Shown here piece by piece: positions 5,601-16,063 of a DNA stretch of 64,000 nucleotides. Position 1 is the stretch's first letter. Every line of letters begins with the position of its first letter. Location: NCBI GenBank assembly GCA_033220425.1, contig CM065653.1, positions 1,240,001 to 1,304,000 on the forward strand, in the 5' to 3' direction. The DNA comes from Lepraria neglecta (taxonomy: Eukaryota; Ascomycota; Lecanoromycetes; Lecanorales; Stereocaulaceae). Under the pieces are notes generated by a model. That model ran no database searches, was not told the DNA's origin, and worked only from the letters and a program-made list of their open reading frames with translations. A program made the translations under genes and the position numbers.

Positions 5601-6022
5601 CATACTCCTCTTCACTTCACTTTACCAGACCCTCAATCATTTATCTTTAGCGTTGACTCTTCAGAAGCCAAAGGGCTAGGCAAGTGTTGGAGATCTTCCA
5701 GAGGCACATTTGTCTTTAAATACCCTCGTTGTCTCCCCTCTTCTCAAATACTCCAAGCACACAACATCCACATTCTCAAGTCCTCCATCAACATCTTCAA
5801 ACATAGGAAGCACAATATGCCATACATACCTTATCTATCCACCCAATCTACCCCACTATGCCTAATCCTCGTCGTCAAGAAGCTACTCAGCATGAGCAGA
5901 CAAGACAGAAGCACACCAAATCACAAAAAGTCGGCGTATCCCATTTTCAACTTCTGAAACACGTATCAACTCCCAATGTCAGCAACCTTGACTACATCAA
6001 CCTTCAAGTCCAAATGGTCAAG

Positions 6023-6027
6023 TTCCA
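6023..6027. other. Target-site duplication, left
   Basis: TTCCA abuts the first base of the left LTR. The same five bases follow the last base of the right LTR at 7017-7021. Five bases is the usual duplication length for LTR retrotransposon integrases. Confidence 0.9.
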
Positions 6028-6170
6028 TGTTGCAATCCGTTGCTTGATTGCTTTCTATGCGATTCCAGAAGCCTGTTGCTAGCCGTTCTTTGTCTGCTTT
6101 GGCCATATATGGGGCCCTGGGGGCCCCCATTAGCTAGATATCCTTCCCAGCCTATTGCCACATTGCAACA
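6028..6170 (+). repeat. Left LTR of the miniature element
   Basis: 143 bp, base-for-base identical to 6874-7016 in my reading. It holds a CATATATGG box followed by a G/C-rich near-palindrome (GGGGCCC..GGGCCCC), which may be the promoter and a hairpin. A diverged inverted copy is at 58498-58638. Confidence 0.92.
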
Positions 6171-6182
6171 GGTTATGAGCCC
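6171..6182 (+). other. Primer-binding site, half-tRNA (initiator tRNA-Met) type
   Basis: GGTTATGAGCCC starts directly after the LTR. Its complement GGGCTCATAACC is the anticodon arm of fungal initiator tRNA-Met, including the CAT anticodon. Drosophila copia and yeast Ty5 are known to prime from this internal site using a cleaved half-tRNA rather than the tRNA 3' end. Confidence 0.82.
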
Positions 6183-6252
6183 GCACAGCGCCTATTTCGC
6201 TGTACCTTTATGGGGAAGGTTCCCTCGCAGCACGGTGTCTGCGTTGTACACG

Positions 6253-6400
6253 TTCAGCCCTCGGATTTGCTTACCAATCGACTTACAGATATGGAGTCAG
6301 AACTCAGTGGAGGCATCATGGAGGAATTCAGCCCTCGGATTTGCTTGCCAATCGACTTACAGATATGGAGTCAGAACTCAGTGGAGGCATCATGGAGGAA
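6253..6400 (+). repeat. 74-bp direct repeat, two copies
   Basis: TTCAGCCCTCGG begins at 6253 and 6327, and the start of a third unit (TTCGGCCCCC) is at 6401. The two units are almost identical. Seventy-four is not a multiple of three, so this part is unlikely to code. Confidence 0.85.
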
Positions 6401-6410
6401 TTCGGCCCCC

Positions 6411-6750
6411 AATCAGTTATTTCTGGGAGCGTTTCGGTCTGAATACAAGCCCTATACGGTTTTGTAGGCACGGCTCCTCAATCAGTTATTTCTGGGAGCA
6501 TTTCGGTCTGGATACAAGCCCTATACGGCTTTGTAGGCACTGCTCCTCAATCAGTTATTTCTGGGAGCATTTCGGTCTGGATACAAGCCCTATACGGGTT
6601 TGTAGGCACGGCTCCTCAATCAGTTATTTCTGGGAGTATTTCGGTCCGTATACAGGGGAGATGAATTCTCAGGCCTACGACGACTACTCAAGCCCTACAC
6701 GGTTTTATAGGCACGGCTCCTCAGTCAGTTGCTACTGAGAGTATTTCGGT
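6411..6750 (+). repeat. 69-bp direct repeat, four to five copies
   Basis: AATCAGTTATTTCTGGGAG begins at 6411, 6480, 6549 and 6618, a strict 69-bp period. A diverged fifth unit starts near 6722 after an insertion in unit four. The period equals 23 codons, so any reading frame crossing it yields a 23-residue repeat. Confidence 0.88.
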
Positions 6751-6865
6751 CCGGATACAGGGGAGACATATGGATTCTCAGGACTATCAACGACCTCTCG
6801 GACGCCGACAAATGTTTTGGGTCCAGGATTGAGGGGAGCGCTAGCAGGGATATGTTTCTAGCATC

Positions 6866-6873
6866 GAGGGGAG
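6866..6873 (+). other. Polypurine tract
   Basis: GAGGGGAG lies immediately before the right LTR, where plus-strand priming of an LTR retrotransposon is expected. Confidence 0.75.
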
Positions 6874-7016
6874 TGTTGCAATCCGTTGCTTGATTGCTTT
6901 CTATGCGATTCCAGAAGCCTGTTGCTAGCCGTTCTTTGTCTGCTTTGGCCATATATGGGGCCCTGGGGGCCCCCATTAGCTAGATATCCTTCCCAGCCTA
7001 TTGCCACATTGCAACA
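6874..7016 (+). repeat. Right LTR of the miniature element
   Basis: 143 bp, identical to the left LTR; followed by the TTCCA duplication at 7017-7021. Identity of the two LTRs indicates insertion too recent for substitutions to accumulate in 286 bp. Confidence 0.92.
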
Positions 7017-8121
7017 TTCCAGGCCAAGATGGCACTCATGGATGCCCATGTCGATCGCAATAAGGCTGCATACCGCGCTCTACGGAAGTGCCTCATAAAC
7101 CTGCCAGAGGACCATCTCTGTTCAGATGAGCAAATACTCCTCAGCCTTTTGCGTCGATTTATCCGTGCCTGCCCAGGCTTGGACCCGTACGGAGGCCTTA
7201 TCATCTTGGCTCAAGCTGAATGGAAGCTGGACCTTGCGATGCTTGAATAGCGAAATCAGGGATCCCGTTGGAAGGACGCCCAAATCATTAAGCATGCATC
7301 TCGTTCACGAAGCCCTAGACAATACGGAAGAGGGAGCGGGGCGAGAGGGAGACACGAGCATGGGAGAAATGGGGCCGAGGACAACGAGGAGGACGATCCT
7401 GAGCGAGCGCGGGCCCTTCGGCGCAATCAATCTATGATACATGGCTAGATCAAGAAGTCCACAAGGCTTCTGGGTACCAAGATTAAAGGATGACGAACGG
7501 ATTATGGTGATATTTTTGAAGAAATGGGCTTGCACTGCTTGGGATTGATGCTTGCGTGAATTCACAGCTTGCGAAATGAAAGAAAATGCATTGTGCATAG
7601 ACACCAAAGGCAGCCAGACAGCTGTCCTCTCCCCCCAATAATGGGGCAAGAGCGTTCCGAGTGGGCTTAGGATAATCCGTTTTGGCAGTCTCCAGACAAA
7701 ACTTTGCCATTCCACACTCACTCAACGCTTTCTTCCCCTACTTTTAGATCAATGTCAAGATTTAGGCTGGGAACAAGCGTCTCATCAAGTACTGCTGGTA
7801 CCAGTTCCATCACCTTCGAAGCAGAATCCTGTCCATCCACCAACTTCTTAGAACGATGATAGCTGCTCTAAAAGAGGGTGAAGTTAACGGAAGCTCATTT
7901 AACAAATTTCTGGATGTCAAAGTACCAGCTTCGAGCCTTTAAGTGCCTTATTTACAAGATTTGTAGCTTTGATCCGCGAAGGGGTACTGCCCGGGTGACT
8001 AGAGTTCATTGGGCTCGAGTACCAGGTATCAAAGCTCAATGTCCAATGTTAATATGTTTTCGGATTTTCAACTGTAAAATCGTGGAATTAAAGGTGGGAC
8101 TGAGATATCTTAGGGTAATCC

Positions 8122-13059: not shown

Positions 13060-15117
13060 TCACCTCAATGGTACTTTGACATCTTGTACACCTCTCTTCA
13101 GCACATCATCCAGCTTCCATCGCGGTGGCTGGTAGTCCATCTCGCCTTGGACAAGACTCTTTTCTGCCCGCTTCCACTCCTTTTCCATCTCTGGAGTGAC
13201 TCCTTCCGGAAGCGGCTCCGCACCACCAGCAATGCCAGAAGAGAACTTGATCTGTAGAACATTGCCGATCTCGTCACAAGCCTCGAGTAGTCTGTCCAAG
13301 TCATCCTTTGTGTGTGCAGCTGACACACAAAATCTAGCTCGGGAGGAGACAAGTGGCGTGGCTGGATAGCCTACGACCACGACAGAGATCTTTCGCTTCA
13401 GCATCTCGTGGGAGAAAGCTGGCATTTTGGCAGGGTTGTAGAGCAGGACGGGGATGATTGGCGAGTCGTCATGGCCATAGACGATGAATCCAAGGCGCTT
13501 CAATCCAAGTCGGAGATAGCGCGAGTTGAATGCAAGTCGCTGAAGACGTTCCTCGCCCTGGCCTGGGATAAATTCACCGGCGATAATCCTTAACGAAGCC
13601 GAAATCTGAGCAAGTACAGCAGGCGCTGGAGATTCGCTATAAATGGAGCCGGCATTGCTGACCCTAAGCTTGTCGATAATCGCTTTGTCGCCAGCAACGT
13701 AGCCTCCATTGGCGCCAAAAGATTTGGTCAGGGTGCCCATCAAGATGTCCACTTCTGCCGGATCAACGCCGAAGTAGTCGCAGACGCCTTTACCCTTAGG
13801 ACCGAGCGCTCCGATAGAGTGAGCTTCATCGACGAAAAGGTTGAACTTGTACTTTTTCTTGAGTGCAAGTATGCCAGGCAGATTACACATTGAGCCTTCC
13901 ATCGAATAGAGACCTTCGACGACCACGAGGATCCTCTTCCACGGCCTGTGTGTTCGTGGCTGGCCTTGAGAGATGACCTCCCTCAGTAGTCTTTCGAGAT
14001 CCTTGACATCGTTATGCTTGAACATCTCGATCATTGCTCCAGAAAGACGAGCACCGAAGCGGATCGAGGCATGATTGAGTTCGTCAGAGATGACTAAACA
14101 TCCCTTACCAATGAGAGCAGGGAACGCCGTTGCATTTGTCCCGAAACCCATTGAGAAGACCATTGCCGACTGCTTGCCAACAAATCGTGCGATCAGTTCT
14201 TCCACCTCCACATGTAGGTCTGAGGTGCCGACATCACCACGCGTGCTGCCAACCGTCAAGCCATATCTTTTGATGTTCTCCTCCACATAATCCGCGCAAG
14301 GACCTTCCGACTGAGCGAAGCCTAGATAGTTGTATGAGCTCATGTTCAATGTCTCGGTTGTTGTGCCTGTGAACTTGAAGTGTAGGTTGTGGTCGTCGGA
14401 TTTTCGGTCTATTAGTGTAATGTAACGGCCAGGTACCCCAGTCACTGGCCTCGCAAAGCAGTCATTTATTCGCAACTTCAGTCGTCTGACGTAAAAATTG
14501 TCGAAGTCGCTGTTCAAGGCCGCATAGCCATCGTGCGCTTGCAAATGCTGGTAGTCCTGCTTCCGGAATCTTTTACCAAAGTAATCGCGGACATGTCCGA
14601 AGACTATTAAGATTAGGTAGCTCAAGTATGTAGTAAGAAGGTACCAGTATGGAGGCTCATCCATGACTGGCTCTGGAAAGGGTCCTCCCTGATGGCGACT
14701 GGTGTATCTATGCGTGTGGTGGCCCAATGGTCCGAATTGAGCGTGCGCCTTCGCTATCCTGCGCGCTTCCGCCGGAGAAGGTGGCTGGAATAATGTGGTA
14801 GGTGGCTCGTCCATGTTCGTACTGTCTGCCCTTGCTGTGGACAGGGAGATGGTCGGTAATGACAAGGATGGAGAGCTGATTTGTGGCGAGGGCGAATTGA
14901 GAAGGAACTGGTGCTGAGCAGCGGCAGTGGCGAGAAGGGCAGCTGTGGCGGTCTGTGTCTCGCTCTTTGATTTGGGCGAGGTGGAGAAGAAGTTGGCAAA
15001 CTTCTTCACTCTTGGTGAGGACGCTCTGCGAGGCATCTCGTACTTCTCATTGTAATTCGTTGTAGTGGGAGTAGGTGGATAGGTGCTGGCAAAAGGATTT
15101 AGAGGTCTGCGCGACAT
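13060..15117 (-). CDS. LCB2: Serine palmitoyltransferase subunit 2
   Basis: Single exon. I start at the ATG giving MSRRPLNPF (685 aa); an in-frame ATG 12 codons upstream (15153) is possible. The product condenses L-serine with palmitoyl-CoA to 3-ketodihydrosphingosine, the first step of sphingolipid synthesis, in the ER membrane together with Lcb1. The N-terminal about 130 residues are low-complexity. A hydrophobic segment (YWYLLTTYLSYLILIVFGHV) is the membrane anchor. The alpha-oxoamine-synthase fold type I domain follows, with MSSYNYLGFA, GDVGTSDLH, VDEAHSIGALG and the PLP lysine in GTLTKSFGANGG. All family hallmarks are intact and the length is slightly above yeast Lcb2 because of the N-terminal extension. 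Confidence 0.96.
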   Translation of the reverse strand: MSRRPLNPFASTYPPTPTTTNYNEKYEMPRRASSPRVKKFANFFSTSPKSKSETQTATAALLATAAAQHQFLLNSPSPQISSPSLSLPTISLSTARADSTNMDEPPTTLFQPPSPAEARRIAKAHAQFGPLGHHTHRYTSRHQGGPFPEPVMDEPPYWYLLTTYLSYLILIVFGHVRDYFGKRFRKQDYQHLQAHDGYAALNSDFDNFYVRRLKLRINDCFARPVTGVPGRYITLIDRKSDDHNLHFKFTGTTTETLNMSSYNYLGFAQSEGPCADYVEENIKRYGLTVGSTRGDVGTSDLHVEVEELIARFVGKQSAMVFSMGFGTNATAFPALIGKGCLVISDELNHASIRFGARLSGAMIEMFKHNDVKDLERLLREVISQGQPRTHRPWKRILVVVEGLYSMEGSMCNLPGILALKKKYKFNLFVDEAHSIGALGPKGKGVCDYFGVDPAEVDILMGTLTKSFGANGGYVAGDKAIIDKLRVSNAGSIYSESPAPAVLAQISASLRIIAGEFIPGQGEERLQRLAFNSRYLRLGLKRLGFIVYGHDDSPIIPVLLYNPAKMPAFSHEMLKRKISVVVVGYPATPLVSSRARFCVSAAHTKDDLDRLLEACDEIGNVLQIKFSSGIAGGAEPLPEGVTPEMEKEWKRAEKSLVQGEMDYQPPRWKLDDVLKRGVQDVKVPLR

Positions 15118-16063
15118 TGTCGATCCGAAGCCGTGACACTGTGTAGCATGCAATTGTGATCAGACGTTAAAGGCAATTGAGGGCTGAACAGTGTCGAGAT
15201 GGTGGAGGAGTGGTCTTCAATATGAGTGCGGATGTGTAGGTTGCCAAGGCAAGTTGTCGTCTTCCCGGAGGCGGTGTAACGGGGCGGAGCCTATGGGGGT
15301 TGGATCTATTAATGTACGGGACGGTTTGCTCTGAAACGTGGAGCAGAGGCGACAGTGGGGTCCTTAAGAGATTTCTAATGCGAAAGTACACAATGCACGT
15401 CACATGAGGTTATGCCTTATTCGAAATCGAAGGGAAGTCGCGGAAAAGAATTTTCTGGCCGCCGAAATGCCGAGAGATGCGATCCTTGATCACTTTGTTG
15501 CTGTTCGAGGTATAGTATTATTCAGTTCGGAAGTGATAGGCTCCGTTACTGGATGTGAGAACGCTGCTGATGGCTTTAGGTCATGCACCACTTCCGAGGC
15601 CTTCCGCTGAGGGAGGGGGTGGAATGTGTATATCTTCGGTAGCGCTCTCTCCACGGAGTCGAACCGGAACTGTCCTTCGCAACCAACAATGCACAGCTGA
15701 AATACGCAAAAGAGGACAGAAAAGGTAAATCAGATAAAGAGCGTGCAGGCGGTCAGCTTGTTAAAGACAGTCGCGTTGTAGGGGAGATTAGTAGTGGTGA
15801 AATTAGGGAGAAAAGACAGGAGCCATCGGGTCACCAGGAAAGGTCGAGATGCTTTGGTGCCAAATTGCATGTCTTGGCGCCAAGGCGAGCCAGGATAGGG
15901 CTGGCTCGCTGGTGAAGATACCGCCCATCCGAAGCGAGATCGAGAACGTCATTCCACATGTCTTGAGAGCAGAATAAATTTCTACATGTTGAGATGCTTA
16001 ATAAGTCCGGTCACGAAATAGAGATAGTTAATTATTAAGCTTCATCTGAGTTTTGACGGCAGC
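15118..16063. other. Divergent promoter region, no gene seen
   Basis: It lies between the divergent LCB2 and acetoacetyl-CoA synthetase genes. A 67-codon frame at 15404-15610 has no splice or family support. I see no RNA gene; a B-box-like GGTTCGACTCC on the minus strand near 15660 lacks a matching cloverleaf. Confidence 0.5.

Follow-up and report, generated by a model that had tools for sequence, protein, structure and literature searches.

A TRIM-type retrotransposon family of Lepraria neglecta and its Copia partner in a genome with RIP-type mutations

The DNA analyzed here, called the window, is a stretch of 64,000 nucleotides from Lepraria neglecta (contig CM065653.1, positions 1,240,001 to 1,304,000 of the forward strand). 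An element of 989 bp has been located at window positions 6028-7016. Its two long terminal repeats (LTRs), 6028-6170 and 6874-7016, are identical at 143 of 143 positions. The LTR termini are TG..CA, or more exactly the 9-bp inverted pair TGTTGCAAT / ATTGCAACA, and the pentamer TTCCA is duplicated directly outside them (6023-6027 and 7017-7021). The sequence GGTTATGAGCCCG begins at 6171, adjoining the 5' LTR, and the polypurine tract TCGAGGGGAG at 6864-6873 adjoins the 3' LTR. The initial annotation of this DNA had claimed all of these parts, namely identical 143-bp repeats with TG..CA ends, the TTCCA duplication, a primer site, a polypurine tract and a length of 989 bp, and all were found to be present. 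The features of the locus are as follows.

5858..6025, plus strand: interrupted open reading frame (ORF), codons 1-56, 49/56 identical to residues 1-56 of protein P0001
6023..6027, no strand: target site duplication, left, TTCCA (5-bp duplications are perfect in 21/24 complete copies)
6028..6170, plus strand: 5' LTR, 143 bp, TGTTGCAAT...ATTGCAACA
6171..6183, plus strand: primer-binding site, 13 nt, complement of the anticodon stem-loop of a tRNA-iMet-type gene
6171..6252, plus strand: conserved 5' internal module, 82 bp, 85-98% identity in 23 other complete copies
6253..6408, plus strand: 74-bp tandem repeat, 2.1 units
6403..6654, plus strand: 69-bp tandem repeat, 3.7 units
6655..6873, plus strand: 3' internal module, found with 100% identity at three further places
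6864..6873, plus strand: polypurine tract TCGAGGGGAG, common to the Copia partner
6874..7016, plus strand: 3' LTR, same sequence as the 5' LTR
7017..7021, no strand: target site duplication, right, TTCCA
7017..7250, plus strand: remainder of the interrupted ORF, 77 residues (7017-7247), 69/77 identical to P0001 residues 56-132

The initial annotation did not mention the tandem arrays inside the element, one with 2.1 units of 74 bp (6253-6408) and one with 3.7 units of 69 bp (6403-6654). A second purine-rich sequence, TGAGGGGAG, lies at 6830-6838, 25 bases upstream of the polypurine tract.

The element was also said to carry no protein machinery, which agrees with the protein-domain search. Its longest ORF (232 aa) has no Pfam match above the cut-off of 27 bits, the best one scoring 12.7 bits. 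Across 24 complete copies in the genome, the longest ATG-started plus-strand ORF ranges from 7 to 246 aa and its length is unconserved. A coding interior was rejected on these two grounds. In RNA folding against shuffled sequences, neither the LTR (z -0.35) nor the 74-bp unit (z -0.56) nor the 69-bp unit (z 0.03) performed better than its shuffles.

The element splits a 132-codon ORF, and the reading phase is kept where the frame resumes at the duplicated TTC codon. When the right piece of 77 residues was used as a protein query, one protein came up at E <= 0.001 among three candidates, P0001 (132 aa), and the P0001 matches from both flanks join exactly at the duplicated codon. Because P0001 covers the left and right pieces, an uninterrupted related ORF exists in another record. 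At E <= 0.01, Pfam matched neither of the two ORF pieces. A paralogous empty site was sought within the same genome and was not found; the flank 7022-7500 is single copy.

Relatives of the element are dispersed through the genome searched (42.0 Mb, 11 contigs). The LTR search gave 199 candidates, and the 40 of these that were scored all have at least 98% identity. A 28-nt pattern from the LTR start, allowing up to three mismatches, matched 194 times genome-wide against 0 for the reversed-pattern control. A junction pattern matched 46 times, with junctions of a Copia partner (see below) among the matches. In all, 85 distinct LTRs were examined, pieces with under about two thirds of the LTR aligned being left out; this sample is fewer than half of the 194 and is biased to LTRs near the window copy and with internal sequence. 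At least 24 LTR pairs within it enclose both a primer site and a polypurine tract and delimit complete elements, which are found on all eight large contigs. Another 37 LTRs stand outside pairs: nine have internal sequence next to them, such as a primer site or a polypurine tract, and belong to incomplete or interrupted copies, and 28 look solo. The genome search with the 143-bp LTR that the initial annotation had proposed has therefore returned both full elements (24 complete) and solo LTRs (28). Target duplications, whose lack of independence among copies the initial annotation had named as a refutation, are perfect over 5 bp in 21 of the 24 complete copies and all different, with exceptions of 4/5, 4/5 and 0/5. 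A perfect 5-bp duplication also flanks 22 of the 28 solo LTRs (counted from the examined rows), leaving 6/28 without one.

The nearest complete copy (C1:1481465-1482665) differs from the window copy at 4 of 482 positions outside the arrays. Two copies, G000:C1:5110780-5114376 and G000:C6:2666923-2669136, have their internal pieces split by extra DNA of about 2.6 and 1.4 kb, which is probably the product of later insertions. At another locus, L074 (G000:C6:3985671-3985813), the primer site comes next after a family LTR, and the DNA beyond it does not resemble the family interior; this is either a truncated copy or a copy with a different interior. L074 was considered as an autonomous carrier of the family LTR and rejected, the 1.4 kb after its LTR being unmatched in other loci and lacking a polypurine tract followed by the LTR.

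All 24 complete copies share one internal plan, consisting of the 82-bp 5' module, 74-bp units in variable number, an array of 69-bp or longer units, and the 3' module. Up to four 74-bp units were matched in other complete copies, and none in C8:3909578. The 69-bp array varies among copies, with longer spacings of about 97 to 109 bp. This variation in the 74-bp and 69-to-109-bp tandem repeats that make up the interior gives complete copies lengths between 708 and 1416 bp, with 10 of the 24 exceeding 1,000 bp.

The primer site has been related to a single candidate tRNA gene. The commonest site in the family has 14 nt of complementarity with the anticodon stem-loop CCGGGCTCATAACC in a candidate gene at C2:547785, the only match to the iMet-type pattern used (up to three mismatches). 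This gene scores 46.5 bits against the Rfam tRNA model, with a 5' acceptor strand that aligns imperfectly, and ARAGORN called no tRNA in L103, at the C2:547785 candidate. We take it to be an iMet gene on account of its CAT anticodon and of features typical of iMet. By script, complementarity among the 24 complete copies was 14 nt in 12, 6 nt in 8, 13 nt in the window copy and 0-1 nt in three. These three low counts arose because the LTR is not 143 bp in those copies and the script started at the wrong base; read directly, two have the full 14 nt and the third has GGCCATGAGCCCGG. The eight 6-nt sites carry GGTTATAAGCCCGG, a G-to-A change of the type expected from RIP. Position 6184 in the window is C, where 23/23 other complete copies have G, and the window copy therefore matches the tRNA over 13 nt instead of 14. 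A half-tRNA (anticodon loop) tRNA-iMet primer site is thus found together with a 5-bp target duplication, as in Copia-dependent elements.

A search for the reverse-transcriptase domain RVT_2 (PF07727) gave 52 matches in the genome. In seven of 30 loci fetched (L041, L052, L057, L058, L059, L060 and L062), TCGAGGGGAG is followed by an LTR of 163 bp, which over its first 37-41 bp shares 82-88% identity with that of the TRIM. For L041, the LTR start matches at 88% (E 6.5e-11, pairwise) and the last 10 bp are identical. The 9-bp LTR ends equal those of the TRIM in the least mutated partner copies, while several partner LTRs begin TATTG or have an altered end, as RIP would give. After the 5' LTR, the primer site of the TRIM recurs in the partner copies as GGTTATGAGCCCGG or, in a number of them, as GGTTATAAGCCCGG, one G-to-A change away. 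The partner pol is of Copia type (PF07727), and its link to the TRIM lies in the LTR ends and the polypurine tract. A copia-group element sharing LTR ends, primer site and polypurine tract, which the initial annotation had suggested looking for, was thus found, with a different interior and broken reverse-transcriptase copies.

Searched as DNA, the reverse-transcriptase domain of L041 occurs 12 times in the genome (13 pieces). In-frame stops were found in 11 of the 12, and the match of the twelfth (C7:3202949) is confined to model positions 12-114; among these 12 copies, a partner reverse transcriptase free of such damage was not found. We therefore infer the helper from remnants. One internally deleted partner (L112, G000:C7:3200188-3203566) has a perfect TCCTT duplication and LTRs with one difference in 163, so that at least one partner copy has LTRs almost as similar to each other as those of the least diverged TRIMs. 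In three further partner copies that were compared, the LTRs differ at 5, 10 and 11 positions. Among the remaining Copia matches, long open frames occur in L044 (G000:C6:2465162; 1301 aa), L040 (G000:C4:1436974; 1459 aa) and G000:C1:4044069 (1469 aa), and these elements are possibly active.

RIP is a process of fungi, and mutations of its type are seen in this family. With gaps excluded, the LTR pair shows 0 differences in seven of the 24 complete copies, 1 in two, 2 in three and 5-15 in twelve. These amount to 117 differences, 102 of them transitions, and 79/102 transitions lie in CA/TA context. The expected share is one third (CA+TG = 24/72 C+G positions), giving a binomial p of 9e-20 with changes treated as independent. 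Counter to pure RIP, some diverged copies have few such changes (C5:3996388, 0/4 transitions). The TA/AT ratio is 0.79 in the window copy and up to 1.40 in diverged copies; it is 1.18-1.68 in the eight partner reverse-transcriptase regions checked, against 0.65 in L043 and L044. The partner is thus heavily altered by RIP-type mutation, and the TRIM copies are altered to unequal degrees, which makes LTR divergence a poor clock here.

The initial annotation had held that identical LTRs imply current or very recent mobilization by a helper. A Copia partner does exist, and this part stands; the dating does not, as the partner's reverse-transcriptase copies are broken and a 143-bp pair is too short to date. 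With 0 differences in 143 bp, the 95% upper age is about 1 million years at an assumed rate of 1e-8. It is about 10 million years at 1.05e-9, a fungal substitution rate quoted in the available portion of PMC5689174. Recent activity of the TRIM family is plausible.

The window element is almost certainly a non-autonomous LTR retrotransposon of TRIM type, as first proposed: its relatives are dispersed and have independent target duplications, solo LTRs occur, and a Copia-group element is its partner. Its RNA would be made by the host from the LTR and packaged by Gag/Pol supplied in trans from a Copia element. Reverse transcription would be primed by tRNA-iMet annealed via its anticodon loop (half-tRNA priming), and plus-strand synthesis would be initiated at the polypurine tract. 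A Copia integrase recognizing TGTTGCAAT/ATTGCAACA would then insert the DNA with a 5-bp stagger. Solo LTRs would result from LTR-LTR recombination, and the internal arrays would change in length probably via slippage or template switching in reverse transcription. RIP-type mutations are present in many older copies and in the partner. Counted against this explanation are the helper known from remnants, the change at 6184, the 10/24 copies above 1,000 bp and the imperfect duplications (3/24 complete copies and 6/28 solo LTRs).

Could another Copia family have moved the TRIM more recently? A family with open frames and the same tRNA-iMet primer site, such as that of L044 (1301 aa), is a candidate, though we consider this rather unlikely. 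Open-frame Copia matches are present, iMet-type primer-site sequence occurs near L044 and L040, and some 2.8 kb upstream of the L044 match, GGTTATGAGCCCGG follows a stretch resembling an LTR. The partner reverse transcriptase is broken in every detected copy, yet 7/24 TRIM copies have identical LTRs. However, the L044 family has an LTR start TGTTGAATTA.., an end ..GCGCTAACA and a polypurine tract TATGGGGGTG unlike those of the TRIM, whereas the broken partner matches at all of these, and identical 143-bp LTRs do not require recent movement. A related scenario is offered tentatively, at a similarly low likelihood: the short, variable-module TRIM would partly escape the RIP that destroyed its Copia partner, outlive that helper, and may now ride another tRNA-iMet-primed Copia family.

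It is very improbable that the element is a recent internal-deletion derivative of the Copia partner and not an independent lineage. LTR ends, primer site and polypurine tract are indeed common to both, and internally deleted partner copies exist (e.g., C7:3200188-3203566). However, pieces of the TRIM interior searched against the partner loci, which covered part of the partner interior, gave no match beyond the LTR start and end; the LTRs measure 143 against 163 bp, and the complete TRIM copies have repeat modules of their own. The deletion-derivative reading is largely refuted. That the 143-bp repeats are ordinary duplicated DNA, through segmental duplication or a tandem-repeat artefact, has next to no probability even though the interior does contain tandem repeats, since dispersed complete copies with independent 5-bp duplications on eight large contigs and solo LTRs remove it, and the flank 7022-7500 is single copy.

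Taken as a TRIM, the window family is a new family within a known class, the fungal, Copia-dependent TRIMs. Plant TRIM and SMART elements are usually shorter than those of the window family, and to our knowledge a variable tandem-repeat interior is not typical of them. They resemble it in their short LTRs, primer site, polypurine tract and absence of coding capacity, as described in the available text of PMC10886601. The same text gives an upper size limit of 1,000 bp for TRIMs (Kojima, 2024), which the 989-bp window copy respects and 10/24 complete copies surpass. It also describes Helenus, a fungal TRIMp3 of rusts (Pucciniales) and several Agaricomycetes, with a tRNA-iMet anticodon primer and Copia partners. 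Helenus LTRs are reported there to contain a Pol III promoter resembling a tRNA, in which box B has a conserved GGTTC. In the window LTR, by contrast, GGTTC is absent from both strands and the Rfam tRNA model gave no match; two B-box-like strings within three mismatches both lack GGTTC. Membership in Helenus was considered for the host kingdom, the primer and the target duplication length, and was rejected because the LTR has no tRNA-like sequence.

In the ascomycete Cochliobolus heterostrophus, seven TRIMs have been linked to a Copia family and solo LTRs occur, as here, but the accessible part of that report (PMC4112212) classes them among degenerate copies and mentions neither a shared primer site nor tandem modules nor a census of target sites. 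The ta-TRIM of taeniid cestodes is similar in that a partner candidate was recognized by LTR start, primer site and duplication length and an intact Pol was not found; it differs in its animal host and tRNA-Leu primer (PMC4558846, as far as the available excerpt goes). That excerpt also cites fungal TRIM-like elements. Fungal TRIMs are in print for Venturia (PMC4646964) and Boletales (PMC5689174), and a TRIM detection step is included in work on Pseudocercospora (PMC13041039), each according to the portion of the source at hand. A limited literature search, by title and start of abstract, returned no paper describing variable tandem arrays inside a TRIM that is exposed to RIP, and absence from print is not claimed.

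Taken alone, the window family adds one family to a known class. It is also a clean fungal case in which LTR ends, primer site and polypurine tract match a TRIM to a Copia partner, and the genome concerned bears RIP-type mutations. Such a matched pair makes the fate of short non-coding elements versus their helpers under RIP testable, and likewise helper switching via a shared primer tRNA. Elsewhere in the window, an ORF at 13063-15153 on the minus strand has an aminotransferase class I/II domain (E 1.5e-56).
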